Source: Pirellulaceae bacterium
Lineage (GTDB): Bacteria > Planctomycetota > Planctomycetia > Pirellulales > Pirellulaceae
Direction of reading: 5' to 3'
Length of the DNA: 48,322 nt
Assembly (NCBI GenBank): GCA_022448315.1
Contig: JAKVCA010000038.1
Coordinates: forward strand, 1 to 48,322
Part shown: piece by piece, positions 2,715 through 23,161 of the stretch
Layout: each line of letters begins with the position of its first letter
How positions within the stretch are numbered: position 1 is the first letter of the stretch
Made by a program: the position numbers and the translations under genes
Notes under the pieces: model-generated
What the model saw: the letters and a program-made list of their open reading frames with translations, nothing else
Database searches by the model: none
Told to the model about the DNA's origin: nothing

Positions 2715-3296
2715 AAACCCTGGACTCCTCGGCGTGGTCAAAAGAAACGGACGCTGTCCCATCTGGACATGAAAAAGCCCGGATTCTAGGGAGCGAGGTT
2801 GGGGCTGTCAACGAATTGCATCCTGTGGCTCATCGCGCGACTTCGCCTGAGGGAAGAGTCACTTCAGAACGAAGCTGCCACCTCAATAGATGGCTCCGCG
2901 GGCATTCGACAAATCGGCGACAGCAAAGACCGTGGGTTGTTCGTCGTCCTCAATCCCAGCTCTCACACTCTTTATGGGGGGCATGCATCAAGAATTCACA
3001 ATCGCTGTGCGAGTCTGAGAGGCCGAACGTCGCGTTTTATCGAGTTTTTTGGGCCTGAAATGGGCTTTCAGGCTCACTTGAAATGGCCCACTTTTGTGTT
3101 CCCCAAAGTTGCCAAGTTTCTAAAAATACCTAAAGAAAAATTAGCTTTCAAAATGCCTATTTTGACATTCAGCAGGCTGTGTGCTTTGCCGATGTTTTCT
3201 ATGTTACGTTACTTCCATAATGCCCCGGAATCATTCAAACTGTTCATTTATCAACTCACGCGGGATTTTTATGGATTGAGGAGTGATGATCCAATC
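2715..3296. other. Intergenic region between acs and the 98-residue gene, with a hairpin
   Basis: This 582-bp stretch separates divergent genes. The plus-strand frame of the downstream gene is open back to 2799, but that sequence has no domain-like character and is locally AT-rich around 3110-3240, so I treat it as non-coding. A hairpin GCCTGAAA/TTTCAGGC (3053-3060 with 3066-3073) can compete with an outer pairing GGGCC/GGCCC (3051-3055 with 3085-3089). A TTGACA hexamer at 3162-3167 could be a -35 box, but no good -10 follows at the right distance. Confidence 0.5.
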
Positions 3297-3593
3297 ATGG
3301 AGCAGTACGGCGAAGCGATCCAAGACCTGACTGATTTAAGACAATTTGTTTATCTCGCGTTATGCGAGCAAAATGACTTCGAGCCTGGAGCTTTCAAATT
3401 CAGCGAAAGAATTCTGGTTCGAGCGGGTCAACCTTGTGGTTTGTTCTTTTGTTTGCACGGCCCACGGAGCGTCAAACTAACAGCCATTTGGGAGACTGAC
3501 CAAAACCATATCATTTTCTACGGTTCGTCCGGCGAGCGGAAACAGAAAACCCGTTTGGCAAAAGGCCCATCTTTAGTGACGGGCTCAGCCTGA
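3297..3593 (+). CDS. Conserved small protein of unknown function, 98 aa
   Basis: I cannot name a function. The protein reads as a compact soluble domain: helical start (EQYGEAIQDLTDLRQFVY), then alternating strands (RILVRAGQPCGLFFCLHGPR, TAIWETDQNHIIFYGSSGER). There is no signal peptide or membrane segment. It resembles short proteins I remember from planctomycete genomes, but this is recollection, not a search. ATG 3297 is chosen because GAGGAG lies 13 bp upstream and because the conserved-looking sequence begins there; an in-frame TTG at 3276 is an alternative. csrA follows 77 bp downstream on the same strand with its own ribosome binding site, so the two may be cotranscribed. Confidence 0.75.
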   Translation: MEQYGEAIQDLTDLRQFVYLALCEQNDFEPGAFKFSERILVRAGQPCGLFFCLHGPRSVKLTAIWETDQNHIIFYGSSGERKQKTRLAKGPSLVTGSA

Positions 3594-3670
3594 GAACAAG
3601 GACGTGATTCGACGCGATCTGTAGAGACCAAATAAGCTCATTGCAGCATGACTCATGGAGGATAAATCTT

Positions 3671-3853
3671 ATGCTTGTGCTATCCAGGAAGGAAAGCGAG
3701 CGTATTCGATTAGGAGATAAAATCGTGTTAACCGTGGTTCGAGTATCGGGTGACAAAGTGCGACTGGGAATTGAGGCACCCTCAGATCTACTTGTCTTAC
3801 GCGAGGAACTCGAACCCCACGAGGAAGAAAAACTGAAGAGGATGGCGGCCTGA
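3671..3853 (+). CDS. csrA: Carbon storage regulator CsrA
   Basis: Small RNA-binding post-transcriptional regulator; the dimer binds GGA motifs in mRNA leaders and alters translation or stability. The 60 residues have the full CsrA fold: MLVLSRKESERIRLGDKI at the start, VRVSGDKVRLGIEAP in the middle, and VLREEL at the strand-helix junction containing the RNA-contacting arginine. The start at ATG 3671 is fixed by GGAGG ending about 10 bp upstream and by the invariant N-terminus. A terminator follows 30 bp after the stop, so csrA ends its transcript. No flagellar genes, its usual neighbours, and no FliW gene are present in the window. Confidence 0.96.
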   Translation: MLVLSRKESERIRLGDKIVLTVVRVSGDKVRLGIEAPSDLLVLREELEPHEEEKLKRMAA

Positions 3854-3883
3854 TCAAGGCCGATCTCTCAGGCTTGAACTCAA

Positions 3884-3916
3884 AGCCCTCGGCCCAAGTG
3901 CCTGGGGGCTTTTTTT
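3884..3916 (+). terminator. Rho-independent terminator after csrA
   Basis: A stem of about 9 bp with G-U wobbles (3884-3892 with 3902-3910) is followed directly by a run of seven T residues (3910-3916). Confidence 0.8.
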
Positions 3917-4000
3917 CATTCTTGCCCAAGCCATTCGGAAAAGGTCGAGTGTTGAACGCTCCACGGCATGACGCTTTGCCCGCGCGAAACCGGTGCCCAC

Positions 4001-4642
4001 TTATGAGCTTTCGCGGGAAGCTGACTCCGACTGAAACTCGTAGAGTTTGTTCGCATAAATGTACTGCTCGATCGATCTTGGCGTTTGAAATCGGATGGAT
4101 TTTCCTTGGCTTAATCGATGGCGTATCTCGGAGCTGCTTAAATCAATGGCCGGAAATTCGATTCGGTGGCGTTTCTGAATGGTGCGGAGGTCACCGGCCA
4201 CATAATTTTGCAGGATCTTCCAATCGGGTTCAGCCTCTTCACCTCGGACCACGACGAGGGGGATCGCCAATTCACAAATTTTTGTAGGCTCGCGCCATGT
4301 CGAAAAGTCGTTGAGTGAATCCGCGCCCATCAAAAGAAAAAACGTCGACTCGGGAGCCGACCGCGTCAACTGTTCCAGCGTGTCCACTGTGTAACTGATG
4401 CCGCCTCGCTCGATTTCTAAGGCATTGACCCGATAGCCGCTCTGCCCCCAAGTTGCGATCTGGAGCATTTCAAGACGATGTTTATCGGACGCGATAGGAC
4501 CCTCGATTTTGTGCGGCGCGTGTTTTACTGGGACGAACCAGACTTCATCGAGTTGTGCCTGTTCACGGCAAAACTCGGCAAGGAGTAGGTGCCCGAAGTG
4601 AATGGGGTCGAATGAGCCACCGTAAACGCCAATATTGGGCAT
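4001..4642 (-). CDS. nadD: Nicotinate-nucleotide adenylyltransferase
   Basis: Transfers AMP from ATP to nicotinate mononucleotide, giving deamido-NAD in NAD biosynthesis; cytoplasmic. The 213 residues show the nucleotidyltransferase signature GGSFDPIHFGHLLLAE at residues 9-24, the substrate loop FVPVKHAPHK, the MGADSLNDFSTW segment and the C-terminal SSSEIRHRL motif that corresponds to ISST-IR of the family. ATG 4642 precedes the conserved N-terminus MPNIGVYGG and is secure. The gene diverges from priA across a 403-bp gap. The common partner genes obgE, proA and rsfS are absent here. Confidence 0.95.
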   Translation of the reverse strand: MPNIGVYGGSFDPIHFGHLLLAEFCREQAQLDEVWFVPVKHAPHKIEGPIASDKHRLEMLQIATWGQSGYRVNALEIERGGISYTVDTLEQLTRSAPESTFFLLMGADSLNDFSTWREPTKICELAIPLVVVRGEEAEPDWKILQNYVAGDLRTIQKRHRIEFPAIDLSSSEIRHRLSQGKSIRFQTPRSIEQYIYANKLYEFQSESASRESS

Positions 4643-5045
4643 GGTTTGGAATTCCGAGAATAGGGACAGCAGGGGTCTGGTTTTGTTATAGTAAGCGTGT
4701 TCGACGCGACGGCTTTCGTGTCGACGGCTGGTTTGGGTCGTTTGACTTCTGGGAACGACGCTGAATCCGGGGAGTCATGCTGGCAGGAAATCCGCGGATC
4801 GCATCCGGTCAATTTGTGGTGAAGTTGTTCATGATCGTACCGGGAACAATTTAAAATTCCACCCTGAGTGGGTGCGTCTCGCACAATTGCTGGCTTTTGC
4901 GCGAGTCGCATCATTTGACTCAATTTTTCGCGGAGACTGCATCCTTCGGAGGCCCCTCGCGGGACTCGGGGTGCCATCTGGATTCCCGACACGCTGGTTG
5001 TGAAATCTCGTTTCTTTTCGTTTGAACCTGTTGCCGACTTTTCCC
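4643..5045. other. Divergent intergenic region nadD-priA
   Basis: This 403-bp gap should hold promoters for both genes. On plus, TATAGT at 4687-4692 with GGGACA 18 bp upstream resembles a sigma-70 promoter, but it lies about 350 bp from priA. Open frames here (for example 4829-5053 minus) have no recognisable product and no ribosome binding site. I see no RNA gene. Confidence 0.4.
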
Positions 5046-7346
5046 ATGGACAAACGCCAACAATCTCTTTTTGATGGTGAGGAAGCGCCGTGGGTCCAAG
5101 ATGATGCTCAAGATTTTCTTGTCGCGCAAGTCGTGTTTTCAGAGCAACCTTTCGGACCTTATGACTATCGGGTTCCCGAAGAATGCCGCAATCAGGTGGC
5201 GTTGGGCAAAAGGGTCCTCGTACCGTTAGGGCGTGGAAACCGCACGCGGGAAGCCTATTGCATCGACGTATGCAGTGCGGCGGAGCGTTCGGCGGCGGTG
5301 GATATGCGGAAACTCAAGCCCCTTCGAAGGGTGTTGGATCGGGACGCGCTACTCAACTCCGAGATGCTGGACGTGGCACGTTGGATCAGCGATTACTACG
5401 TGACACCGTTAGGGCAGGTGATCGAAACGGTTGTCCCTTCCGGGGTCCGTGCGCAGGCGGGCACACGCGAGGTGGTCCTTTTGGATGTTCCCAACGCGGT
5501 CATTGCCAAACTGACCCAGCTGAAATTACCGCCCAAACAGTCGTCTGCGCTTCGGGCTCTGGCGTCGAGTCCCAAGCCTCTCACGGTGAATGAACTTTCA
5601 AAGAGAGCGGGCTGCACCGCTGCACCGATTCAGTCGCTTCGAAAAAAAGGTTTGATTCGCGAAACGATCGAGCGGATTGAAACGAGTGAACATGCGCTCG
5701 ATTCCGAAACCGATGATGCTCCCAAATCGCTCAACGAGCAGCAGGAGGCTGCGCTGCGTCAGATCGGTCAATCACTTGATTCTGGTGAGGGCGGAACACT
5801 GCTTCTGCACGGCATTACGGGGAGCGGCAAAACCGAAGTTTACATTCGCGCGATCCAGCGAGTCCTCAATATGGGGCGGCAAGCGATTGTTCTTGTGCCT
5901 GAGATCAGCCTGACTCCTCAGACTCGACGGCGATTCCGCTCCCGTTTCAAGCGAGTCGCCGTCATGCACAGTCACTTGAGCCAAGCAGAGCGGCATTGGC
6001 ACTGGCAACGGATTCGACGAGGTGAGGTCGACGTGGTGGTTGGCGCTCGCAGCGCCGTCTTCGCACCCACGCCTCGACTCGGACTGATTGTGATTGATGA
6101 GGAACATGACGCTTCATTCAAGCAGGATAATATTCCGCGGTATCACGCCCGGGATGTCGCTCGCTATCGAGCGTCTCTTTCCAAAATTCCGCTTGTGCTT
6201 GGCTCGGCAACGCCGAGTCTTGAGAGCTGGCATGACGCGGCGACGGCACGAAGTGATCGAATCAGTTTGCCTGGTCGTGTCCGCAATCTGCCTCTGCCCG
6301 AGGTTGCCATCGTTGACTTGAGAGATGAGTTTCGTTCGAAAAAAAGTTGGGGGATGATCAGTCGCCCGCTGGCACGTGGCATTCAGGAAACGGTGGCAGA
6401 AAATGGACAGGTGATGCTCCTTCTGAATCGCAGAGGTTTCGCGACCAGCATTCAGTGCCCCGCTTGCGGGTTCGTCCTCAATTGTCCGAACTGCGATGTG
6501 GCTCTGACCCACCACCGTGACGGGCGGAAAGCCGTCTGCCACTACTGTGATTATGTGGTCCCCGAACCTTCTCAGTGTCCGGAGTGTCTTTTTGATGGGA
6601 TTCGGTTTGCTGGATTCGGGACGCAAAAACTGGAAGAGGAGGTGCAGAAGAAATTCCCAGGGGTTGCTTGCCTGAGAATGGACAGCGATACGATGAGAAA
6701 GCCCGGAAGCCATGAGATGGCCTTGGAGAGGTTTCGTCGTGGCGAAGTCCAGATCTTGCTCGGGACTCAAATGATTGCGAAGGGACTCGATTTTCCAAAC
6801 GTGATGTTGGTCGGTGTCATCAACGCGGATACGGCTTTGCACTTTCCCGATTTTCGTGCTGCCGAACGCACGTTTGGACTTTTGACACAAGTCGCAGGCC
6901 GTACTGGCCGTGGCGATCGAGGGGGGCGCGTCTTCGTCCAAACCTTCACTCCCGATCACAACGCCATCGTATTGGCAGCGAAGCACGATTTTTCAGCATT
7001 CGCAGAACAGGAATTGCCGGTGCGTGAAAGCCTACGTTATCCCCCTTGGGGGACGATGGCTCGATTTGTAGTACGAGGCCCTATCGAAACACAAACCCAG
7101 GCTTTCGCGGACCGACTGGGTGACCGCATCCGATCGTATGTCCAATCCGACGCCGCAACTTTCCGAGTGCTTGGTCCTGCACCGTGTCCCATTGGCAAAT
7201 TGAGAAACAAGTTCCGTTTCCATCTTTTGGTCCAAGGACTCGAGGCCCAGTCCTTGCAAACAGCGGTCCGTGCCGTTTCTGAGTCACTTCAGGTTCCTGA
7301 GGACATTCAATGGGTCGTGGATATTGATCCTCTCGATATGCTGTAG
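5046..7346 (+). CDS. priA: Primosomal protein N' (replication restart helicase PriA)
   Basis: 3'-5' DNA helicase that recognises stalled or repaired forks and reloads the replisome. The 766 residues contain an N-terminal DNA-binding region (QVVFSEQPFGPYDYRVPEE), Walker A GITGSGKTEVY, Walker B VIDEEHDASFKQ, LGSATPSLES (motif III), and a zinc region with the cysteine pairs CPACGF, CPNCDV, CHYCDY and CPECLF. Helicase motifs V-VI are seen as GTQMIAKGLDFPNV and QVAGRTGRGDRGG. The ATG at 5046 is preferred to the in-frame TTG at 5022. All cysteines of the zinc sites are present, so the enzyme should be functional. It stands alone; the next gene begins 209 bp later. Confidence 0.96.
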   Translation: MDKRQQSLFDGEEAPWVQDDAQDFLVAQVVFSEQPFGPYDYRVPEECRNQVALGKRVLVPLGRGNRTREAYCIDVCSAAERSAAVDMRKLKPLRRVLDRDALLNSEMLDVARWISDYYVTPLGQVIETVVPSGVRAQAGTREVVLLDVPNAVIAKLTQLKLPPKQSSALRALASSPKPLTVNELSKRAGCTAAPIQSLRKKGLIRETIERIETSEHALDSETDDAPKSLNEQQEAALRQIGQSLDSGEGGTLLLHGITGSGKTEVYIRAIQRVLNMGRQAIVLVPEISLTPQTRRRFRSRFKRVAVMHSHLSQAERHWHWQRIRRGEVDVVVGARSAVFAPTPRLGLIVIDEEHDASFKQDNIPRYHARDVARYRASLSKIPLVLGSATPSLESWHDAATARSDRISLPGRVRNLPLPEVAIVDLRDEFRSKKSWGMISRPLARGIQETVAENGQVMLLLNRRGFATSIQCPACGFVLNCPNCDVALTHHRDGRKAVCHYCDYVVPEPSQCPECLFDGIRFAGFGTQKLEEEVQKKFPGVACLRMDSDTMRKPGSHEMALERFRRGEVQILLGTQMIAKGLDFPNVMLVGVINADTALHFPDFRAAERTFGLLTQVAGRTGRGDRGGRVFVQTFTPDHNAIVLAAKHDFSAFAEQELPVRESLRYPPWGTMARFVVRGPIETQTQAFADRLGDRIRSYVQSDAATFRVLGPAPCPIGKLRNKFRFHLLVQGLEAQSLQTAVRAVSESLQVPEDIQWVVDIDPLDML

Positions 7347-9394: not shown

Positions 9395-9735
9395 CGATCA
9401 TATCGCCGCTCCGGTGCGACTGCGCGTAACGAGCGGATCCTAAATGATGACGGCGAGATGCCGTTTTGGTGAATCGCAGGACGGGTCCTTCGGGTTGCCA
9501 ACGCGAGAATTGCCAAGGTCACGCGTGCCCATCGATGCCGAGATCGGGTACTTTGTGGGAAGGTTGGTCGGTTGTGTTGAATTATGGCGGTCGCCCAACT
9601 CGAAGCTCCGTGCTAACATCCCCATGGGCCAGGTCGTTGAGAGCACCTTCAGACTCTGGGGTACAAGGGCGAGTCGGGTGAGGCACGGTCAACGACCGAA
9701 GCAAAAATGGGAAATGTGAACACCACGACGCAAAC
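9395..9735. other. Intergenic region upstream of rnhA
   Basis: In these 341 bp I find no convincing gene; the open frame 9444-9719 lacks a ribosome binding site and domain character. TGCTAACAT at 9611-9619 could be an extended -10 element for rnhA-recG, with no good -35 box. An 18-bp imperfect direct repeat (CACCACGACGCAAACATG at 9721-9738, repeated at 9739-9756 with two changes) spans the annotated rnhA ATG. Confidence 0.4.
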
Positions 9736-10248
9736 ATGCACCACGACGCGAACGTGATAGCGGAGGAGTCAAGCTTGGCCCCGGATCAGTCGAAATCAGG
9801 TATTGAAATTGAGTTGTACACGGACGGCGCCTGTCGTGGTAATCCAGGTCCTGGCGGATGGGCTTACATCTTGCGGCACTTACCGACCGGCAAGGAGGTC
9901 GAGTGCAACGGGGGTGAACGGGATACCACCAACAACCGCATGGAGCTTCAAGCAGTGATTGAGGGGCTTGCGGCACTTAAACGACCCTGTCGTATCGAGC
10001 TTTTTATTGACAGCGAGTATGTACGGCAGGGCTTGGAGTCTTGGGTTGCAAAATGGAAAAAGAATGGCTGGCGTCGAAAGACAGGTAAGGGAATGTCCGC
10101 CGTCAAAAACGATGACCTCTGGAAGCGACTTGACGAGTTGGCTTCAAGGCATCAGATGAAGCTGACACGCGTGGCAGGGCATAGTGGGCATGTCGAAAAC
10201 GATCGCTGTGACGAGCTGGCGGTCGAGGCTGCTGAGGCCGTGCGCTGA
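9736..10248 (+). CDS. rnhA: Ribonuclease HI
   Basis: Endonuclease that cuts the RNA strand of RNA-DNA hybrids such as Okazaki primers and R-loops. The product of 170 residues has the full RNase HI core: YTDGACRGNPGPGGWAYI (first catalytic Asp), NNRMELQAVIEGL (catalytic Glu), FIDSEYVRQGL (second Asp), the basic-protrusion region WKKNGWRRKTGK, and VAGHSGHVENDRCDELA with the active-site His and final Asp. The start is uncertain. ATG 9736 has no Shine-Dalgarno and lies inside a short direct repeat, whereas an in-frame TTG at 9775 has GGAGGAG six bases upstream and would give 157 residues starting just before the core. recG follows 15 bp downstream, so the pair is probably an operon. Confidence 0.93.
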   Translation: MHHDANVIAEESSLAPDQSKSGIEIELYTDGACRGNPGPGGWAYILRHLPTGKEVECNGGERDTTNNRMELQAVIEGLAALKRPCRIELFIDSEYVRQGLESWVAKWKKNGWRRKTGKGMSAVKNDDLWKRLDELASRHQMKLTRVAGHSGHVENDRCDELAVEAAEAVR

Positions 10249-10263
10249 CGTTAAAGGTCTGAC

Positions 10264-12459
10264 ATGGGAGTTGAATCGAATTCAGGTTCCGAGTTTCGCG
10301 AGGACCAACATGCGGGTCAAGCGTCAGCGGATGTTGGACCTGCCACGAAGTCGGACAGGGACCACGGGGAGCCAGGTGAGTCCGCAGGTGGACCTGACGA
10401 TCTGAAGACCGAAGTCCAGTTTCTCCGCGGAGTGGGGCCAAGGCGGGCCGAGATGCTGCAGCGGATGGGGCTTCGCACGGTTCAGGACCTTATCTTTTTC
10501 TTCCCACGCGATTACCAGACACTGGCGGCCGTTACGCCCATCGACTCGCTGCTGGAGTCAGAAAGTGCGAGCGTCCACGGGGAACTCGAGTCGGTATCGT
10601 CGAGGCGCACACGGAGAGGGATGCACCTGGTCACCGCGAGGCTTTCCACCCACGAAGGCGAGTTGAAGGTGGCGTGGTTTAACCAGCCCTTCCTCGCGAA
10701 TCGACTGCACAATGGGATGCGAGTCGTTTTGTCTGGCAAGCCGAAGAAGCGGGACGGGCAGTGGGAATTTTCGAATCCAAAGTGGATGGTGTTGCGTGAG
10801 GATGAAGCGGTTCCCGGCGGTCAAATTCTACCCGTCTATCGACTTACTGAAGGCATGCCGCCGCAGCAGATGCGTAGTATCGTGGCCTCCGCACTGGGAA
10901 ATTTTCTCCCAAGCGTCGAGGAAGTGTTGCCCGAGTCTTTTCGACGTGATCACCAATTGATCTCGATTCATGAAGCATTGAAAGGTATCCATGCGCCGGA
11001 ATCAGAGCCACAACTTGAGGAAGCAAGACGTCGACTTGTGTTTCAGGAGTTGCTGGTCCTGCAACTCGCACTTGCCATGCGAAGGGAAAACCTGCAATTA
11101 AAAAGTCGGGCGCCTCGACTGACCTCCAACGCCAAAATCGACGCGCGTATCTGCAGACTCTTTCCATTCGATCTCACGGAGGCCCAGCGGCGCGCGATTG
11201 ACGAGATTTGCGTCGATCTGGGCCGTGAAGTCCCCATGAACCGTCTCTTGCAAGGCGACGTCGGCGCTGGAAAGACGGTGGTCGCTTTTTACGCCATGCT
11301 GTTGGCTGTCGCGCATCAACATCAGGCCGTCCTGATGGCACCCACTGAAATCTTGGCCGAACAACATTTCAAAAACCTGCAGCGTCTGTTGTCACACAGC
11401 CACGTTTCGGTGGGGCAGCTCACCGGTCGCTTGAAACAACGCGAAAGAACCGAGTTGCTGGAACAACTCGAGACCGGGCATATCGACATACTGGTTGGAA
11501 CTCAGGCGATTTTGCAGCCGGGGGTTCGCTTTCGAGCATTGGCCATTGTGGTCATTGACGAACAGCATAAATTCGGGGTGAAACAGAGGGCGGTGTTGAG
11601 GGAGGCAGGTGAAGACCCGCATTACCTGGTCATGACGGCAACGCCGATTCCGCGAACGATGACCATGACCGCGTTTGGAGACCTCGACGTTTCCACCTTG
11701 GAGGGACGGCCGCCTAATCGTCAGACCATCCACTCTTATCTGGGTGAAGACGATTCGCGTGATTCCTGGTGGGATTTCTTTCGTAAAAAGCTTGATGAAG
11801 GTCGGCAGGGTTATGTGGTCACCCCATTGGTGGAAGAGACTGACGGTTCACAGGAAGCGAGTGTGAAGTCGGTGTTCGAAAACCTCTGCAACGAAGCGCT
11901 CTCCGGGTATCGGGTGGGCTTGCTTCATGGGCGGCAGACGCCCGAGGAAAAGGCCGATGCCATGTTTCAGTTCTCTACAGGCGAACTCCAGGTTCTAGTG
12001 GCGACGTCGGTTCTTGAGGTTGGAATCGATGTGCCCAACGCCACGTTGATGACCATTGAGTCGGGGGAGCGATTTGGGCTGTCGCAGTTGCACCAACTCA
12101 GAGGGCGTATCAGTCGTGGGACGCACCCCGGGTTTGTCTGTGTTTTTGCCGATCCGAAAGGGGATCAGGGGAGGGAAAGACTGAAGGCCTTTGTGAAATC
12201 CAACGATGGATTCGAACTGGCCGAACTCGATTTTTCATTTCGTGGACCTGGCAACATGCTTGGCACGCGTCAACATGGCATGCCGCCTTTGAGGGTGGCG
12301 GATTTGCTCCGGGATCGAGACGTCGTGCTTGAGGCTCGACAGGCGGCACAGGGCCTGATCGGTCAGGAGGCACAATGGCTGGATGCTCAGTTTGAGCCAT
12401 TGAGGAAGCAGGTGTTGCGTCGCTACGAATCGGTGTTGGATCTGGGGGACGTCGGGTGA
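10264..12459 (+). CDS. recG: ATP-dependent DNA helicase RecG
   Basis: Branch-migrating helicase that remodels stalled forks, Holliday junctions and R-loops. At 731 residues it is slightly longer than typical because of an N-terminal tail of about 45 acidic or polar residues before the conserved LRGVGPRRAEMLQRMGL. The wedge/OB domain follows, then Walker A GDVGAGKTVVAFY, motif Ia APTEILAEQHF, DEQHKFGVKQR, TATPIPRTM, and the C-terminal motifs ATSVLEVGIDVPNA and QLRGRISRG. AAAGG lies 7 bp before ATG 10264. The gene starts 15 bp after rnhA; both enzymes act on R-loops, which fits co-expression. Confidence 0.95.
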   Translation: MGVESNSGSEFREDQHAGQASADVGPATKSDRDHGEPGESAGGPDDLKTEVQFLRGVGPRRAEMLQRMGLRTVQDLIFFFPRDYQTLAAVTPIDSLLESESASVHGELESVSSRRTRRGMHLVTARLSTHEGELKVAWFNQPFLANRLHNGMRVVLSGKPKKRDGQWEFSNPKWMVLREDEAVPGGQILPVYRLTEGMPPQQMRSIVASALGNFLPSVEEVLPESFRRDHQLISIHEALKGIHAPESEPQLEEARRRLVFQELLVLQLALAMRRENLQLKSRAPRLTSNAKIDARICRLFPFDLTEAQRRAIDEICVDLGREVPMNRLLQGDVGAGKTVVAFYAMLLAVAHQHQAVLMAPTEILAEQHFKNLQRLLSHSHVSVGQLTGRLKQRERTELLEQLETGHIDILVGTQAILQPGVRFRALAIVVIDEQHKFGVKQRAVLREAGEDPHYLVMTATPIPRTMTMTAFGDLDVSTLEGRPPNRQTIHSYLGEDDSRDSWWDFFRKKLDEGRQGYVVTPLVEETDGSQEASVKSVFENLCNEALSGYRVGLLHGRQTPEEKADAMFQFSTGELQVLVATSVLEVGIDVPNATLMTIESGERFGLSQLHQLRGRISRGTHPGFVCVFADPKGDQGRERLKAFVKSNDGFELAELDFSFRGPGNMLGTRQHGMPPLRVADLLRDRDVVLEARQAAQGLIGQEAQWLDAQFEPLRKQVLRRYESVLDLGDVG

Positions 12460-14427: not shown

Positions 14428-15663
14428 TCAGCGGAGTCTTGAGTGTCGCGCTGACCTTTCGACAATCTGCGTCAGGTGGGACGACGCACGCTGGAATTGA
14501 CGGCCTGTCTGGTCGAGCAGATCCGCGAACCACAATACGGTTTCCGCATGGACAGGTGTCGTCGGCTCAATCGGGGATTGGGGGGAGACGGACGGTTTCA
14601 GGTGCATCAACTGATGCCACCTTTCCAACGCTTCTGTTCCGTGCAATTTCAACTCCACGTACTGCCAGAAATCTCTTTGCGCTCGTGCAGGTGACTGCAC
14701 GTAGGGATGCGTGACGATCCAGGACTGGTAGGTCGACAAAAGACTTGGAGCCGCTGCCCATAGTTCCATGTCGATCGACCGAATTTCCCTCCTCGGGGTG
14801 ATGTCGAGGTGCCGATGAGCGTCCCAGTAGCTCAGCTCGATGGTTCGGTAGGCCTCGATGTCAAGGTGCTGATGAGCCCGCCAATAGTCAACCGCGTTAT
14901 TTTTCTTTGCCGATGCCACGGGATCGACGTCGAGATGCTGATGAGCGTCCCAGTAGCTCAGCTCGCTGGCTCGGTAGGCCTCGATATTGAGGTTCTCGTG
15001 CGCCTGCCAGTAGTCGACTGCCGGGCAGACTGGCAATGGGTCTGCAATGACCAAGTCGTAAGGACGGTACTCTTCATTCAAGGTGCGTACTTTGCTAATC
15101 GCACTTGAGACAGCTCGCTCGAGAAGGTCTGTCAGTGAGCTTGAATCCGTGAACGGATGATGCTCAGGGAGGGTACGAAGATTCAGCGACTGTTCGTAGC
15201 AAGTGCCTTGAAAGTCGAGATGTCCTGCAAATTCAGGTTCGTCCTCGACCGAGGTCCAATCCAAGGCTGCAAGTCGCTTGAGAGTTTCGCAGGAAGTCTT
15301 GCGATCTTGTCGTGGGGGTACGTTAGAAAACCGCCGCGATAGTCTCACTCCTTCTGTGTGATGTCCACCGAAGGAGGGCCAATCGTGCCCTACAAGATCG
15401 TCACAGATCGCAGGTATTGCCGGTGAGACCCTTGCTTCCGGAAAATCGTTTTGATTTTTCGGGGTAGGGCCACTCAACTCAGGTGACTTTGAATAAACCT
15501 CGTAGAGATATTCGCTGCATTGATTTTCAGCCAACGGCCAATCAAGATTTGAGCGAGTTGCCCCGTCCTCCTGAGCGTTCAAGCTCATTGGAGTCACGAC
15601 CATCAAACCTATTGCAAACGCTGAAACCAACCGCTCCAACTTTTTCGCCTTACGAAGATTCAT
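14428..15663 (-). CDS. Secreted protein with tandem YWxAHxHLDI repeats, unknown function
   Basis: I do not recognise this 411-residue protein. An N-terminal basic stretch (MNLRKAKKLERL) and a hydrophobic segment ending MSLNAQ form a signal peptide. The middle, about residues 205-287, holds four copies of YW(D/Q/R)AH(Q/E/R)(H/N)L(D/N)(I/V), stepping 19, 23 and 19 residues, with EAYR-ELS links in between. The block is a 42-residue (126-bp) tandem duplication still clear at DNA level. The region before it is Cys- and Pro-containing and polar; the C-terminus is helical (SSHLTQIVERSARHSRLR). The start at 15663 is set by GGAGGACCGGAG directly upstream; the frame is open to 15894 but lacks a signal there. 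The repeats are rich in Trp, Tyr and His, so ligand or metal binding is possible but unsupported. Confidence 0.8.
   Translation of the reverse strand: MNLRKAKKLERLVSAFAIGLMVVTPMSLNAQEDGATRSNLDWPLAENQCSEYLYEVYSKSPELSGPTPKNQNDFPEARVSPAIPAICDDLVGHDWPSFGGHHTEGVRLSRRFSNVPPRQDRKTSCETLKRLAALDWTSVEDEPEFAGHLDFQGTCYEQSLNLRTLPEHHPFTDSSSLTDLLERAVSSAISKVRTLNEEYRPYDLVIADPLPVCPAVDYWQAHENLNIEAYRASELSYWDAHQHLDVDPVASAKKNNAVDYWRAHQHLDIEAYRTIELSYWDAHRHLDITPRREIRSIDMELWAAAPSLLSTYQSWIVTHPYVQSPARAQRDFWQYVELKLHGTEALERWHQLMHLKPSVSPQSPIEPTTPVHAETVLWFADLLDQTGRQFQRASSHLTQIVERSARHSRLR
14801..15052 (-). repeat. 126-bp tandem duplication inside the YWxAH protein gene
   Basis: Two copies with a period of 126 bp (about 14801-14926 and 14927-15052) share long identical blocks such as GCGTCCCAGTAGCTCAGCTC at 14819 and 14945. 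Each encodes two YWxAH motifs. Confidence 0.8.
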
Positions 15664-16160
15664 ACTCCGGTCCTCCCGACCCAATCGGATCCTCCGCGAA
15701 ATACTTTGCCCGCGTCTGGTCGCAGGTAAAGGTAGATCCGTGAGCAAATTATTCGTTGTTGATTGAAGCCAGAATCGTATTGTCCCGTGTTCCGTCCTCG
15801 TAGGTTTTTGCGACGGCACAACCTGGCAACGATTCTGAAATAAAAAACGCAGATGACTCTGGGTGAACAAGCGCCCGGCGAAACGACTTCCCACTGACTT
15901 TGAGCCTGTGGGAAGATATCGGCGTCAGCTAAACCGAAGCGGTACGTGAACTTGGAAAAGAGGGGCCGACTTTTTGGAACACGCGATAGTTGGTATGACC
16001 AGTGAAGGGATGCTACTCCCGACGGAAGTTGCGCCTGTTCGGTTCGTGCCGACTTCGATGATTGTTCTCGACTCAAACTGTCGGAGTCCGAATATCATTG
16101 ATGCATTTGCCGTCACAATACGGAGCATTAACCCAAAGGGAATGTCGCACGTTTCCAAGG
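15664..16160. other. Intergenic region between two minus-strand genes
   Basis: These 497 bp carry no gene I can support; open frames at 15660-16076 and 15974-16177 have no domain character. A perfect 8-bp inverted repeat CTTCCCAC/GTGGGAAG (15887-15894 with 15908-15915) has no T-run on either side, so it is not an obvious terminator. Confidence 0.4.
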
Positions 16161-19100
16161 CTAGAGGTTCAGTTTGAGAAAATCGGTCATCACGCCTCTC
16201 ATGTGACGTCGAAGGTCCGGTTGCGAGACTCCGTGGCGACTTTTGGGGTAGATCATGAGTTGAAATTCTTTGCCCGATTTTTGGAGTTCGTAGGCGAGTT
16301 GCATGGTGTTGGTGAGGTGGACATTATCATCCATTGCCCCGTGAATCAGTAGAAGTTTGCCATGGAGATCGCCCGCCGCCTTGACCACAGAGGAACTCTC
16401 GTAACCAGCGGCATTCTCTTGGGGGCGGCCCATATAGCGTTCGGTATAGATCGTGTCGTAATTTGCCCAGTCCGTCACCGGTGCCCCAGCGATTCCAGCT
16501 TTAAAACGCTTGGAGTGCGTGAGCGCGTAAGCCGTCATGTAGCCGCCATAACTCCACCCCCAGATCCCGATGCGTTTTTCATCAACCCAGTCGTGCGTGA
16601 TCAGCCAATCCAGGCCATCCTCGATATCAGACAATTCCTTGGTTCCGAGGTTCCGATGGATGGGCCAAGCACTTTCCACTCCTCCGTAGGTTGAGGAGCG
16701 ATTGTCGCACATCCAGATAATGTACCCCTGTTGGGCCAGTAGTTGATGCCAGAGGTAGGTTGATCCGCGCCACGCGTTTCGAACTGTCGGGGCTTGAGGC
16801 CCACTGTAGACATGAACGAGGACGGGATATTTTTTAGAGGGGTCAAAATCAGGTGGAACGATCAACATGGCATCAAGTCGATACCCATCACGAGTCTCAA
16901 CCTGCATGAATTCAGGTGATGAAATTTGTACGTGACGAAGTCGATCTGGAACATTCGGATTCAGCAGGCGTTGCAGGTTGCCCTTTCGGTCAAGCAAACG
17001 GGTCTGTGCTGGTTGGTTTGCTCTAGAGCATGTGTCGATCAAAAAGTTTCCTGACGGACTGATGCGGGTGGTATGATCCCAACCCCATTCCGTCACGCGT
17101 TCTCGCTTTTTTCCATTCAGAGAAACGCGATAGGTATGTCGCTCGATTTTCGAATCAAATGTTGCGGAAACCCAGACCTCTTGCCGTTGCTCGTCGATTT
17201 TAAGCAGGTCCCTGACCTCGCCAGGGCCCTTGGTAATGACTCGCTGAAGTTGGCCCATGGGGTCGTAATGATAGATTTGTTGGGTGCCACTGCGGGAACT
17301 CAGCCATAAAAACGACCCGTCCTCCAGCCATCGAGGTTGACCCGGGGACTCAATCCATGCGGGCGAAGATTCGCGAAACCAACGGGTGGCCTGCCAGATT
17401 TCATCGTTCAAGGAAGCGACGTTGAGATCGAGAAACGTCTGGACTCGATCCTGCACTTGATAGACCAATTGGTCTTTTTCCGGGTTCCAACCGACCCTCG
17501 ATATCAGGGGTTCCGGAGTCTGTGAGTCTGTCAGGTCCAGCCATTGAACTTCGCCTGTCACCACATCAACAATGCCGATACTGACAGTGGGGTTAGGGTC
17601 ACCCGCTTTGGGGTAGGCCGTGATCTCAAGCGTCTGCCGAGTGGGGATGTGGTCGGTGACAGTGAATTGTTGGACCGCTCCTTCATCCAATTTCAGGAAT
17701 GCAATGAAGCGACCCGATGGACTCCACCAAAAGCCTTTGAAGTTGCCGCGGCCGTAGAGTTCTTCCTGGTAAACCCAATCGAGTTTGCCGTTGAACAGGG
17801 TTTGGCTTCCATCGTTGGTCAGTCGACGTTCCGAACCCTCTTCGGCGAGCGAGTTCACGTAGAGATTGTTGCTTCGAACATAGGCAACTCGGCTCTCGGT
17901 TGGGTCGATTTCGGCGAGTTCTTCCTTTTCATTCGTTTGCGTCAACCAACGGGCCAAGCCGGTTTCGTGACTTACGTAGATCAGGTCTCCATCGTGGAGG
18001 TAAAGCCGCCCGTCACCACGAGGCCCAAGTGTTCCTTGGGTCTTTGCCAATTTCTCCGCAGCATCAGGACTGAGCTTCTCAAGTTTGGCGAGAGCTTCCG
18101 CAGTCGATCTTTCGTCGATTGCAGGTTCTACTCGCGCGCGGTTCCCCGTTGCTGCTTCAGTGCGCGTCGTGCGCCCATCGAGGGATTGTCGGTACCAATC
18201 GTCACCTTTTTCCCAACTGAATGTCTGCCGCTCGCCACTGTAATTGACTTGCCCACCCGGGCCAAAAATTTTGTCCAACGTCAGTCTTTCGGATGGCCGA
18301 ATTTTTCCCAATAGGGTCAGCGAATCCGTTGGCGTCGCTTCGGAAACCCGGAAATAGGGGAGCGAGGTTCCACGTTCAAGGAATTCATCGAAGAAATTCC
18401 ATGACAACAGACTGTCGCTCGCCTCGGGTTCCAGCAGGCTTGCCAACAGGCGACCCCCCTGAGCGGTCTTGAGGACAAACGTCCCTGCCGGGAACTCCTG
18501 CCGGATCGTTTCGATTGATGTCAAAGCTGCGGGGCGGCGATGTCCTTGGAAGGGGCGGGAAGCCACCTCCACTTCCTCAATGACCCATCGTTGCACGCTC
18601 CTGACTGCAGACTCTTTCAGGATGTAGACGGGAAGACCATGCCATGCCAATCGTTCGGCAACCCAACTCTGGTCTGGCGTGAGCCAATATTCCTCGGGAA
18701 GCGTGGCGATCGTGCCAGACTGGTAACGTCCCCAAAATTCAACTTCCACATCCTGCGGTTGGTCGCCCTCGCCGTAGCCGAGTATGGTGGTGGGCGTATC
18801 AAACGGGGCCAGTTCTGCGGTCAATGGTACCTTTCGCTGTGGCGGCAACTCCGTTTTTGCTTTGCGGGTCACATTGATGACTTGCGGCTTGAGCTCGATG
18901 CAACGGTCGATGATCGCTTTGACGAAGACGCGCGAAGCGTCGATCCGTTCCTGATAAGTGGCGTATGAGTAGGCTTCCGAAAGAATCCCCAAGATTCCGC
19001 GAAGCCCAGCATACTCCGTGCTGTAACGAGGTTCGTAACCATAGGTTGACCATCGAGTGCGGTCGCGGTTGAAGTTTCCATAATAGAACGTGTCGATCTG

Positions 19101-19946
19101 TTCTTCTTCACGAAGTCGCTGGGTGACCGCGGGGAGAATGTCCTGTCGGAGGAATTCTCGAAGCTCAGAAGACGATCCCGGGTGGTGAGGAATATCGTAG
19201 GTCAATTTGTAACGGTGCCGTGAGCCGTTCGTGGTATGGCAGTCGATGAAGACGTGTGGATCCACTCGATTGAAGAGTTGAACCAATGCGCGTGTTTCCG
19301 GAGCTTCGAGTTTGATGAAGTCGCGATTGAGGTCCAATCCTGCTGGGGTCTCACGCAGGCCCATGCCGTGGCTAGGTCCAACCTGTCCGGGTCGATGGTT
19401 CGTGCCGAGCCGATCGTTGGCGTCCGCGCTGTAGTTAGGGATGATGTAAAGTTCAGCTTCCTTGAGCCATGGGTGGTCTGGCGTTTGCGCGAGGGTCCGC
19501 AGGAGTTGCAAAATCGCCTCTTTGCCAGCGCACTCTCCCGAGTGAATATTGCCGATCAGAACGACTCGCAAGCGGTCATCATCTTCAGCCGGTGATGAAT
19601 CCTGCTGCTCCGGTGCGACCTGCACGCACCAGATCGATCTTTGTTCATCCGTTCTACCGATTTCATAGAGCTGAAGATGGGGTGAACGATCAGCGATGGC
19701 TTTCAGATAGTCCTCGACCTGCCGGGACGTCGAGGTCGCCTGATACTGGCTTACTTCAGCAATCGTCTCGGGCCATGGTTCTTCCTCGGCTGCGTCCTGC
19801 ACAATGACCTTCTTCGCGATGACGTTCTCCGGGAGGGCCTGACCGGGAGTCGCTGTTGGAATGATCCAGAGGGATAATGAGAGGCCGCAAATCCAAAGAA
19901 TGCTTGTCGCTGTAGAGCAAGTCGAGAAGCGGTGAAGCGAGTGCAT
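16161..19946 (-). CDS. Secreted two-domain peptidase: M14 zinc carboxypeptidase fused to DPP-IV-like S9 peptidase
   Basis: A 1261-residue protein with an N-terminal signal or anchor (hydrophobic about residues 14-36). Residues about 60-350 form an M14 carboxypeptidase: zinc ligands H135 and E138 in NIHSGE, H237 in FIDCHTTNGS, and catalytic E324 in ILSEAYSY. A linker of about 300 residues follows. Residues about 640-1000 form a beta-propeller with DWVYQEELYGR; its E728-E729 pair matches the Glu pair by which DPP-IV holds the substrate N-terminus. Residues about 1010-1261 form the alpha/beta-hydrolase with S1132 (GWSYGGYM), D1206 (HGAMDDNVH) and H1238 (SRHGVS). All catalytic residues are present in both halves, so both should be active. 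The substrate is probably peptide taken from outside. The frame is continuous with no sign of an assembly join; the closest simpler descriptions would be two separate proteins. Confidence 0.9.
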   Translation of the reverse strand: MHSLHRFSTCSTATSILWICGLSLSLWIIPTATPGQALPENVIAKKVIVQDAAEEEPWPETIAEVSQYQATSTSRQVEDYLKAIADRSPHLQLYEIGRTDEQRSIWCVQVAPEQQDSSPAEDDDRLRVVLIGNIHSGECAGKEAILQLLRTLAQTPDHPWLKEAELYIIPNYSADANDRLGTNHRPGQVGPSHGMGLRETPAGLDLNRDFIKLEAPETRALVQLFNRVDPHVFIDCHTTNGSRHRYKLTYDIPHHPGSSSELREFLRQDILPAVTQRLREEEQIDTFYYGNFNRDRTRWSTYGYEPRYSTEYAGLRGILGILSEAYSYATYQERIDASRVFVKAIIDRCIELKPQVINVTRKAKTELPPQRKVPLTAELAPFDTPTTILGYGEGDQPQDVEVEFWGRYQSGTIATLPEEYWLTPDQSWVAERLAWHGLPVYILKESAVRSVQRWVIEEVEVASRPFQGHRRPAALTSIETIRQEFPAGTFVLKTAQGGRLLASLLEPEASDSLLSWNFFDEFLERGTSLPYFRVSEATPTDSLTLLGKIRPSERLTLDKIFGPGGQVNYSGERQTFSWEKGDDWYRQSLDGRTTRTEAATGNRARVEPAIDERSTAEALAKLEKLSPDAAEKLAKTQGTLGPRGDGRLYLHDGDLIYVSHETGLARWLTQTNEKEELAEIDPTESRVAYVRSNNLYVNSLAEEGSERRLTNDGSQTLFNGKLDWVYQEELYGRGNFKGFWWSPSGRFIAFLKLDEGAVQQFTVTDHIPTRQTLEITAYPKAGDPNPTVSIGIVDVVTGEVQWLDLTDSQTPEPLISRVGWNPEKDQLVYQVQDRVQTFLDLNVASLNDEIWQATRWFRESSPAWIESPGQPRWLEDGSFLWLSSRSGTQQIYHYDPMGQLQRVITKGPGEVRDLLKIDEQRQEVWVSATFDSKIERHTYRVSLNGKKRERVTEWGWDHTTRISPSGNFLIDTCSRANQPAQTRLLDRKGNLQRLLNPNVPDRLRHVQISSPEFMQVETRDGYRLDAMLIVPPDFDPSKKYPVLVHVYSGPQAPTVRNAWRGSTYLWHQLLAQQGYIIWMCDNRSSTYGGVESAWPIHRNLGTKELSDIEDGLDWLITHDWVDEKRIGIWGWSYGGYMTAYALTHSKRFKAGIAGAPVTDWANYDTIYTERYMGRPQENAAGYESSSVVKAAGDLHGKLLLIHGAMDDNVHLTNTMQLAYELQKSGKEFQLMIYPKSRHGVSQPDLRRHMRGVMTDFLKLNL

Positions 19947-19991: not shown

Positions 19992-20564
19992 TCAATGAAC
20001 GACCTTCTTCTTTTTCAGCTCAAAGTAACATTTCATGCACGCTGACGTGTCGGCCATCGCGTCATGGGCCGATTCGAATTCGGTACCAAAAAGCTTCAGA
20101 TGCAATTCGGTCAACGTCGGCCATTTGTAGCCGTATTTTCCGGGGATTCGACAATACTCCGTCCCTTCTCGCATCGTGCAGATCGAGCGGCGAGTGACCA
20201 GCGTGTTGACCCAGCCTTGCCTCAGGATTTCAGCGCCGACCACGTTCAGATCAAAAGAGATGTTATGGCCCACCACGTCGGTGGCTTCTTCGATGGCCGA
20301 CCGAAACTCTTCGAGTGTCTCGCCAAGGGGTTCGCCATGTCTGAGTGCGTATTCGGTCGTGATGCCGTGTTGTCGAGTTGCGCCGGGGCTGATGGCGAAT
20401 CCTTCCGGCGCGACGATTCGACAACTTCGTTTCTGCTCGGTTCCATTCTCGTCCGTCAGAATCCAGCCCAATTGAACGAGTCGTGGCCAATTCGACACAT
20501 CCGACGCGGGAGCGTCCCACCGTCGGGGTAGACCGGAAGTTTCCGTATCAAAAAACAGGTGCAC
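19992..20564 (-). CDS. DEDDh 3'-5' exonuclease (DnaQ-like)
   Basis: A 190-residue stand-alone exonuclease domain of the DnaQ/RNase T superfamily. ExoI is FFDTETSGLP (D6, E8), ExoII is VVGHNISFDLNVVGAE, and ExoIII is SAHDAMADTSA with the His and Asp of the DEDDh type. The YKWPTLTELHLKLFG segment is the region that normally precedes ExoIII. It has no polymerase, BRCT or UvrC-like GIY-YIG part. It could serve in proofreading, repair or RNA trimming; which cannot be told from sequence. The start at 20564 gives MHLFFDTETSG, right for the family. It lies between the peptidase fusion and the NHL protein, with no clear functional link. Confidence 0.88.
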   Translation of the reverse strand: MHLFFDTETSGLPRRWDAPASDVSNWPRLVQLGWILTDENGTEQKRSCRIVAPEGFAISPGATRQHGITTEYALRHGEPLGETLEEFRSAIEEATDVVGHNISFDLNVVGAEILRQGWVNTLVTRRSICTMREGTEYCRIPGKYGYKWPTLTELHLKLFGTEFESAHDAMADTSACMKCYFELKKKKVVH

Positions 20565-20679: not shown

Positions 20680-22887
20680 CTAGAAACCAGGGTTCACCTG
20701 GAGTGGGATGGAGCCTTTCACCCTGTCGCTTCTGGGTTCTGCGGTGAACGGAACCGTCCAGACCACACTGCCGACTTTGCAAAGACCCTCTCCACCTTTC
20801 TGGCAGTAGTAATAGTTTGTCGAGATTTGCACCGTTCCAGAACCTGACTTGGTCACTGGAATACTGACTTCGAACGAATCGAGCGGTGGATCGACCCGGA
20901 CTGCGTTTTCCGGCAAGCGACTCGTATCGACGACGCCCGAATTGCTGCTGCCGTCCACGTAGTAAGCCATCGGGGCGATGGGGTTGATTTTCCAAGCTGC
21001 CGGCAGAACAAACTCGACATCGAAGGTGACTTTTCCATCAACAACCTTCACGGATTGTGGGTCCAGTTTTACCTGTTCAGCAGAGGCAAAGCTGGGTCGT
21101 TCGGCCGGTGGTTTGCTCGGTGGCTCCAGCCCTTGAATTTCCAGAGTCTCGGTTGCGCCGCTCTTGGGATCAATGACTCGGATCGCATGGTTGTTTGTGT
21201 CGGCCACATAGATCTTGCCGCCACAAAAATGGAGGCCCGCCGGCTCATCAAAACGTGCGGGTTGGTCGGTCATGCCCGGCTCTCCATCGCCCGCAAGCGT
21301 TGAAGTGGCACCCGTCTTGGCATCCATGATCTTGATTTTGTTGTTGTAGGTGTCCGCCACGTAAAGCATGCCTTCGTCGTAGGTGACGCCGATGCAATGC
21401 TGCAGCAGGACTCGCTCGCGATCACCATCTCGATCGCCGAAGGTGAAAAGACGAGCGTTGGGGAGTTTCGAGGTTCCGACAACCGTTCGGACTTTTCCGT
21501 TGGGGTCAAAGGGCACTGCCCGGATCGAGCTTCCTTCGCTGTCCGCAACGTACAACCAGTTTTCGTCCGCTGCCAATCCACTAGGCTGCGCAAAAGATGC
21601 GAAACCAAGATCATAGGGGCGACGCGGAAGGAGTGGCCCGTCCACGATGTCTTCTCGTGCGTTACCCGCGTAGGGATAGATTTCTGATTCGTTAAGGGGC
21701 ATCTTCCAGATCATGTGCGGTCCTGCCATGGCGATGTAGAGTTCATCGTCTCGAATCAAGAGGGCCCAAGGGCTGGCGATGCTCGTTGTCTTCGGTTTAC
21801 CGGACCATCGAAGGGGAAGGCGTCCCGAGTTACCGATTCGCTCCATGCCAGGAAAAGGGGAGTTGGCTTGCTTGCCAGTGCCCGCAATCGTCTTGACCGT
21901 CTTCTCGACCAAGTTGATTTTTCGAATCAGGTGGTTCTCGGTATCGGCAACATAAAGCCGGTCGCCACGCAGGACCATACCTTGGGGTTTGTTGAATTGC
22001 GCTGTCGAATAGTCGCCATCTCGGGCACCCACAACTCCGGACCCAATAACGTCGATCAGCTTGCCTTCCAGATCTGAAATGACAATACGATTGTGGGTAC
22101 TGTCTGCAATAAAGAGTCGATTGGAGTCTGCGTCACCGAGAACTTTCCCGGGAAATCTCAATGGTGTCGCAGGCGCGTCGACCGCATGGAGGTCAAAATG
22201 CGTGGGAGTGTCGTCGAGCAGTCCTTTCTTTCGATAATAGGGCAACGCTTCTTTCAGAATGCCGTCGATGACCGCCGCTTTGGTTTCTCCGCTTTTGATC
22301 CAAACCGCTTGTCCAGCAGGATCGATAAGTAGCAGCGTGGGCCATGCGTTGACACCAATGCTTCGCCAGATCTCGAGTTCTGGGTCGTTGACGACAGGGT
22401 GCTCGATCTCATGCCGCAAAATCGCATCTTTGATGTTGTCCACATTTTTCTCGGTTTCGAATTTGGCCGAGTGGACTCCGATGACCACCAGTTCGTCCGG
22501 ATATTTCTGCTCAAGCTTCTTCAACTCAGGAAGGATGTGCATGCAGTTGATGCAGCAGTACGTCCAAAAGTCCATCAGAACAAATTTGCCGCGTAAATCT
22601 TTCATTCGAATTTTACCACTTGTGTTCAGCCATTCGGCAGATTCGGGAAATTCGAAGGGAAAGTCGATGCGGCGTTGGAAAGGGTGATCTGAGTCTTGAG
22701 GTTCTGGGGTCTCAGGTGAGGTTGTCGCCGTGTAGCGAATCACCTCGGACGTGTTCGGATCGCCAACTTTGAAATTTTCTTTGTATGCAGGCCTAACGGG
22801 GCCAAGCCAGGTACTGAGGGCGATTACCAGAGCCAGCACAACGCTTGAGGTTCCAACCAGAATTACGGCTTTCATCGTCTTACTCAT
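20680..22887 (-). CDS. NHLRC2-like protein: membrane-anchored thioredoxin domain plus NHL beta-propeller
   Basis: A 735-residue protein with an N-terminal membrane segment (about residues 6-27), a TlpA/AhpC-like thioredoxin domain (about 70-220), NHL repeats (about 245-620) and a C-terminal beta-sandwich (about 640-720). The redox motif is in FWTYCCINCMHILPEL; C112-I-N-C115 is the CxxC pair and the CCINC form is that of animal NHLRC2. Propeller blades are marked by repeats such as LYVADTENHLIRKI, LYVADTYNNKIKI and IYVADTNNHAIRVI. The C-terminal part, containing YYYCQKGGEGLCKV, resembles the thiol-interchange N-domain family. The start at 22887 is chosen because GAGG lies about 9 bp upstream and the anchor follows at once. 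The thioredoxin domain probably works outside the cytoplasmic membrane; substrate unknown. Confidence 0.88.
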   Translation of the reverse strand: MSKTMKAVILVGTSSVVLALVIALSTWLGPVRPAYKENFKVGDPNTSEVIRYTATTSPETPEPQDSDHPFQRRIDFPFEFPESAEWLNTSGKIRMKDLRGKFVLMDFWTYCCINCMHILPELKKLEQKYPDELVVIGVHSAKFETEKNVDNIKDAILRHEIEHPVVNDPELEIWRSIGVNAWPTLLLIDPAGQAVWIKSGETKAAVIDGILKEALPYYRKKGLLDDTPTHFDLHAVDAPATPLRFPGKVLGDADSNRLFIADSTHNRIVISDLEGKLIDVIGSGVVGARDGDYSTAQFNKPQGMVLRGDRLYVADTENHLIRKINLVEKTVKTIAGTGKQANSPFPGMERIGNSGRLPLRWSGKPKTTSIASPWALLIRDDELYIAMAGPHMIWKMPLNESEIYPYAGNAREDIVDGPLLPRRPYDLGFASFAQPSGLAADENWLYVADSEGSSIRAVPFDPNGKVRTVVGTSKLPNARLFTFGDRDGDRERVLLQHCIGVTYDEGMLYVADTYNNKIKIMDAKTGATSTLAGDGEPGMTDQPARFDEPAGLHFCGGKIYVADTNNHAIRVIDPKSGATETLEIQGLEPPSKPPAERPSFASAEQVKLDPQSVKVVDGKVTFDVEFVLPAAWKINPIAPMAYYVDGSSNSGVVDTSRLPENAVRVDPPLDSFEVSIPVTKSGSGTVQISTNYYYCQKGGEGLCKVGSVVWTVPFTAEPRSDRVKGSIPLQVNPGF

Positions 22888-23161
22888 ATCTCTAGTCCTC
22901 GACTGAACGATTCCAAGGAGTGATTTTCTTCCATCTTGCCGTGATACGGGTAACCGTATTGTTGTTGTCAGTGACTTCGTTGAAAGTCTTTTCATTGACA
23001 ACCGTGAGCAAACCTCACCTCTCTGCATTGTCACGGATGACAGGAACTTCGGCAACACGATGGCCCTGTAGAAATTATTCGGAGACCGAGTCGGGGCTCG
23101 CTTTCAATCGCGGCGATTTTACCCCCTTGGCGAAGCTTAATGGGCGCGTCATGCTGCAGAC

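Follow-up and report, generated by a model that had tools for sequence, protein, structure and literature searches.

A conserved planctomycete protein family that joins an M14 carboxypeptidase half to a DPP4-type S9 peptidase half

DPP4 preferentially releases dipeptides that end in proline or alanine. Metallocarboxypeptidases of family M14 share a common HxxE...H...E set together with an NR pair. Several peptidase domains can occur on one chain, as in metallocarboxypeptidase D, one of whose domains is inactive (according to the available part of PMC11266112), and in the human polyserases, which carry several catalytic domains per polypeptide (according to the available part of PMC1435904). 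We describe a gene of a Pirellulaceae bacterium, located in a stretch of 48,322 nucleotides (contig JAKVCA010000038.1 of assembly GCA_022448315.1; hereafter the window), that encodes an M14 half followed by a DPP4-type S9 half in a single protein. Carboxypeptidase D differs from this protein in that its peptidase domains are all M14, with no aminopeptidase head, and the polyserases differ in that their domains are all serine proteases, with no M14. No description of an M14-S9 fusion was found in the open-access literature searched, in agreement with a sequence-only reading of the window that had considered the arrangement unusual. The protein is no one-off; it belongs to a conserved planctomycete family. 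The combination of two known kinds of peptidase is apparently undescribed, and protein-family databases may already list the architecture.

The gene and its main parts are as follows:

16161..19946, reverse strand: whole fusion gene, a single open frame with an ATG start, 1261 amino acids plus stop
19839..19946, reverse strand: signal-peptide-like N-terminus, about residues 1-36, from direct reading and a crude scan for hydropathy and motifs; where it is cleaved is a guess
18897..19769, reverse strand: M14 carboxypeptidase catalytic domain, about residues 60-350, from Pfam, the model and relatives
18324..18836, reverse strand: M14 C-terminal domain, about residues 371-541 (about 170 residues), a confidently predicted fold that also occurs in standalone M14 genes
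18297..18323, reverse strand: junction, residues 542-550 (about 9 residues), with boundaries from relatives and structure comparison
16164..18296, reverse strand: DPP4-type S9 peptidase, propeller plus alpha/beta hydrolase, residues 551-1261, from Pfam and from sequence and structure comparison

Pfam searches of the 1261-residue frame bore out the presence of both peptidases on one polypeptide, with Peptidase_M14 at residues 78-213 (E value 5e-14), DPPIV_N at residues 654-979 (6e-77) and Peptidase_S9 at residues 1068-1258 (3e-52), each above its cut-off. An AlphaFold2 model of residues 62-1261 had a mean predicted local distance difference test score (pLDDT) of 85.2 and a predicted template modeling score (pTM) of 0.82; its weakest long stretch, model residues 115-152, lies within the M14 domain. 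The region that had been taken for a 300-residue linker is instead made up of the M14 C-terminal domain (about 371-541) and the first part of the DPP4 propeller, which begins at 551. The enzyme had also been proposed to be secreted; a secretion-type N-terminus is present, and the compartment itself is predicted from it. A crude motif scan found no lipobox-like motif in the N-terminus of the window protein, and a defense function was rejected, PADLOC giving no match.

The fusion was found in 48 distinct genes, the window gene included, each in one frame and all joined at the same place; three of them end at a contig edge (L002, L036, L038). Genes of this kind occur in genomes of 11 family groups (f1, f4, f7, f10, f22, f24, f29, f56, f72, f104 and f113), several of which lie outside the class of the window genome, and all of which belong to Planctomycetota. 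In 46 of the 396 genomes of the window's order the M14 half has a relative (E up to 1e-10), and this relative is fused to S9 in 32, cut at a contig end in one (L088), divided into two overlapping frames in one (L085) and unfused in 12. The unfused assignment comes from reading the locus in five cases (L083, L084, L086, L087, L091) and, in the other seven, from open frames of 516-997 residues, which are too short for both halves. A phylum-wide sample of 392 genomes contained an M14 relative in 103 and the fusion in 13: the window genome, 11 others in one frame, and G471, in which we infer a fused gene cut across two contigs (L122, L179). In this sample, every genome with an M14 frame longer than 1000 residues was read at its locus, along with part of the rest. 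G471 stands outside the total of 48 and would add a twelfth family group, f73. Five further fused genes came from named records (L033, L034, L036, L038, L039).

Given this distribution, the idea that faulty assembly or annotation merged two genes into this frame, which the sequence-only reading had raised beforehand as the danger to its own claim, is hardly credible. L085, where the halves appear as overlapping frames, might be cited in its favor, but 47 other fused genes in the assemblies of relatives carry the same join, and on these grounds the artefact was ruled out. In L085 itself, M14 (2820-4568, forward strand) and S9 (4486-6660, forward strand) reflect either a genuine split or a sequence error; the other members of its genus (g24) with a match carry the fusion, which in one of them is truncated by the contig edge.

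The catalytic residues of the S9 half are:

17760..17765, reverse strand: E728-E729, double-glutamate motif in DWVYQEEL, from a PDB match and the alignment of relatives
16551..16553, reverse strand: S1132, nucleophile in GWSYGG, from alignment with relatives
16329..16331, reverse strand: D1206, triad residue, from alignment with relatives
16233..16235, reverse strand: H1238, triad residue, from alignment with relatives

Over its whole length the S9 half has the features of the DPP4 family, namely a propeller plus alpha/beta hydrolase fold, a Ser-Asp-His triad and the double glutamate. Its modeled structure aligns at full length with the DPP4 chain 5yp1_C (Z 45.7, root-mean-square deviation (rmsd) 3.1, 672 aligned residues, 34% identity), and Foldseek likewise matched it to DPP4. 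The bacterial DPP IV enzymes of family S9B, from Pseudoxanthomonas mexicana (5yp1) and Stenotrophomonas maltophilia (2ecf), share fold, triad and double glutamate with it at about 33% identity, and in the listed matches their alignment is confined to the S9 half. E728-E729 is present in every row of the alignment of S9 relatives. All five residues were found in 47 of the 48 fused genes, and the remaining one (L002, at a contig end) lacks only a readable H1238.

The corresponding residues of the M14 half are:

19533..19544, reverse strand: HxxE zinc-binding motif, H135 and E138, from alignment with relatives
19323..19328, reverse strand: N207-R208, aligned with the NR pair of carboxypeptidase D and conserved in relatives
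19236..19238, reverse strand: H237, third zinc ligand, from alignment with relatives
18975..18977, reverse strand: E324, catalytic glutamate, from alignment with relatives

The H, E, H, E set is intact in 43 of the 48 fused genes, not fully readable in two (L036, L038) and lost in three. The catalytic residues that the sequence-only reading had named for both halves fall in columns conserved in nearly every readable row of the alignments of relatives. The M14 half is distant to solved carboxypeptidases: its closest PDB sequence has an E value of 2e-4, the carboxypeptidase D/N group being nearest, and it differs from described M14 enzymes by an unmatched domain of about 170 residues after the catalytic domain. 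The Peptidase_M14 match scores 52.9 bits against a cut-off of 21.6 and covers only positions 2-136 of the 286 in the profile, and the matches listed in whole-model structure searches all aligned with the S9 half. In PDB sequence alignments, R185 and N207-R208 align with the arginine and the NR pair of carboxypeptidase D chains. We take N207-R208 to bind the substrate carboxylate, as is generally known of M14, and R185 and R208, by their alignment with carboxypeptidase D chains, are presumably the counterparts of the arginines of CPA1 numbering. In bovine CPA1, R127 and R145 are listed as substrate-binding arginines (in the available part of PMC11266112).

The distance to solved carboxypeptidases, along with a C-terminal domain that lacks a convincing match, is consistent with a different activity, in which the M14 half would be a zinc hydrolase acting on non-peptide or cell-wall substrates. 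A weak AstE/AspA-type match in the window protein (E 0.047, below the Pfam cut-off) and one above the cut-off in the corresponding stretch of the M14 relative L116 point the same way. We regard this as improbable; wherever the intact fused rows can be read at these positions, they retain R185 and N207-R208, which align with carboxypeptidase D.

We consider it fairly probable that the protein is a secreted or periplasmic two-headed exopeptidase. The S9 head (551-1261) would anchor a peptide by its free N-terminus at E728-E729 and split off dipeptides, with a preference like that of DPP4. The M14 head (60-350) would hold zinc by H135, E138 and H237, grip the C-terminal carboxylate through R185 and N207-R208, and remove C-terminal residues with E324, and the M14 C-terminal domain (371-541) would now lie between the heads. 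One chain would deliver complementary exopeptidases together, so that peptides, including those containing proline, could be trimmed at both ends. From these features we infer both activities, their specificity and the cell compartment, and a wider role in peptide breakdown outside the cytoplasm for nutrition. A crude scan of the fused genes detected a hydrophobic, signal-like N-terminal stretch in 44 of 46 readable cases and a lipobox-like motif in two of the 46. A conserved chain with N- and C-terminal exopeptidases offers a direct test of whether linkage speeds full peptide breakdown.

Several observations weigh against a two-headed exopeptidase. Release of dipeptides is uncertain because the match of the S9 half to a prolyl tripeptidyl aminopeptidase is almost as good as that to DPP4. 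Some or all of the M14 catalytic residues are lost in three fused genes (L009, L014, L115) with intact S9 residues; all three are still recognized by a profile built from the remaining M14 halves, L014 and L115 over most of their length and L009 in two pieces with a gap. In one gene (L182, the same gene as L012 and L090), a leader is followed by the M14 C-terminal domain and then by S9; no M14 catalytic domain was found in any frame of the stretch, including 200 residues past the upstream TGA. Its frame has 941 residues by stop-to-stop reading (1140 in another listing), with about 1.4 kb upstream before the contig ends (L090). L182 stands beside fused genes in the S9 tree, and for that reason it likely arose by deletion of the M14 catalytic domain. 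Given the loss of the M14 set in three of 48 genes and of the whole catalytic domain in L182, the need for a second active head is not universal. In addition, standalone M14 genes (L082, L083, L084, L086, L100, L121) nest among fused genes in the 64-row M14 tree, and a standalone S9 gene (L049), whose genome gave no M14 match, nests among them in the S9 tree; the halves are therefore not dependent on each other.

The same losses bear on the proposal that S9 is the working enzyme and the M14 half mainly a scaffold, or a substrate-presenting or stabilizing module whose catalysis is dispensable. The M14 residues are gone in L009, L014 and L115 while those of S9 are kept, L182, without the M14 catalytic domain, still links the C-terminal domain to S9 after a hydrophobic leader, and the pseudo-M14 genes occur at three places in the S9 tree and on long branches in the M14 tree. 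Carboxypeptidase D offers a possible parallel, its third domain being inactive yet still important (in the available part of PMC11266112). We nevertheless judge this unlikely: the full M14 set is retained in 43 of 48 genes, M14 ratios of nonsynonymous to synonymous substitution (dN/dS) were low in the pairs tested, and all ligands are present in the window gene. Within the two-headed reading, the M14 half may also be useful without catalysis, for example as a scaffold, a role left possible because some lineages lost its sites. A more elaborate version, which we consider a long shot, is a processive machine that trims both ends of a peptide. Its heads would be coupled by the C-terminal domain, with a fold new to the PDB, and on several occasions M14 heads would have given up catalysis to become modules that present substrates for DPP4. 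Genes with both heads intact, with M14 residues lost, with the M14 domain missing, in two frames or as adjacent genes form a natural series through which the role of each head can be tested comparatively.

In close pairs of relatives, dN/dS ranged over 0.03-0.15 in the M14 catalytic domain (seven of eight pairs, L142-L138 being saturated), 0.04-0.17 in S9 (all eight) and 0.04-0.25 in the C-terminal domain (seven). These ratios come from a simple count, are rough with several dS values above 1, and concern pairs of relatives only, the window gene's nearest relative being about 50-57% identical. Being low, they point to purifying selection on both halves in those pairs.

Fused genes fall into three blocks of the 105-row S9 tree, and constraining 53 rows against the other 52 into one clade was not rejected (approximately unbiased test, p-AU 0.206). 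The 53 rows were the fused, pseudo, cut, split and M14-less genes plus the nested L037 and L049. L037, which the S9 tree labels 'alone', probably represents a fused gene broken by assembly, since its genome holds a 51% M14 match on another contig. The M14 tree was built with 68 rows and then with 64, after removal of the long rows L009, L083 9654, L087 and L091. In the 64-row tree, a branch with support 79/93 (not starred) sets apart 49 rows (fused, pseudo, split or cut) together with six standalone rows, the latter picked after the tree was seen. The three pseudo-M14 genes stand at three places in the S9 tree and on long M14 branches in the 68-row tree, two of them also in the 64-row tree, where L009 was left out. 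A single ancient fusion, undone several times in either direction, would be allowed by both trees.

Another reading is that two independent exopeptidases were linked only so as to be secreted together or made in equal amounts, without cooperation; it is compatible with the two-headed exopeptidase in everything save the benefit of linkage. That both halves also occur alone, and that M14-only genes nest within the fused set, would fit such a joining, but the same join position has been kept across genes of 11 family groups. We see it as a serious possibility, short of probable.

Relatives of the two halves tend toward the same genomes. In the 392 genomes of the phylum sample, both were present in 58, M14 only in 45, S9 only in 26 and neither in 263; without the 13 fused genomes the counts were 45, 45, 26 and 263 (cut-offs E 1e-10 and 1e-110, with kinship among genomes ignored). 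Standalone M14 genes, mostly frames of 500-700 residues in Planctomycetota and Acidobacteriota, have homologous catalytic and C-terminal domains at about 25-46% identity and differ in having no S9 attached, as judged by reading or by frame length. Seven long M14 frames had no detected S9 (L107, L114, L116-L120). Pfam searches of six of them (all but L118) gave nothing above cut-off outside the M14 stretch, and those of five long S9 frames (L174-L178) gave no M14; the extensions of these long frames are taken as non-coding open frame. In L173, distant from the fused genes, M14 (2313-4133, forward strand) and S9 (4188-6347, forward strand) are separate neighbors with frames 54 bases apart. L083 carries two M14 genes of different branches, 5360-7045 (reverse strand) and 9654-11342 (forward strand), about 2.6 kb apart.

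The phylum of G788, whose record (L041) bears the name Acidobacteria, had an M14 relative in 103 of 199 sampled genomes, with no fusion among the matches listed and no listed M14 frame longer than 996 residues. Other phyla were searched at lesser depth. A scan of 84,980 species, with six short peptides of the window protein as the only queries, gave fused matches in Planctomycetota or families within it, except for L035, which is labeled 'bacterium'.

The M14 C-terminal domain probably came into the fusion together with the M14 enzyme, because standalone M14 relatives commonly carry it. Many such standalone genes, from both Planctomycetota and Acidobacteriota, contain it, and the searches made gave it no Pfam model or convincing PDB match. 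Residues 355-545 modeled alone gave a pLDDT of 87.4, the first 13 residues being poor. A disordered spacer between the halves was ruled out, both models being confident over most of the region and the domain being found in standalone M14 genes. Searches with the domain returned a single match to PDB sequences (E 0.4), no convincing fold match in Foldseek (best E 0.14), a best VIA-align 2 Z of 4.2 (rmsd 4.2 over 67 residues) and one weak Pfam match (E 0.19) in one of nine members, and NCBIfam gave none for window residues 1-545. Such a lack of matches is no demonstration of a new fold.

Pfam scans of 20 other open reading frames (ORFs) in the window gave no peptidase family match. An RNase_T-type exonuclease gene (19992-20564, reverse strand) ends 45 bases upstream of the fusion start on the same strand. 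Downstream, a 488-residue ORF (14428-15894, reverse strand) has no Pfam match and contains the repeated motif YWxAHxxLxIEAYRxxELSYWDAHxHLD. A 792-residue ORF (20680-23058, reverse strand) joins a Thioredoxin-like domain to NHL repeats according to Pfam.

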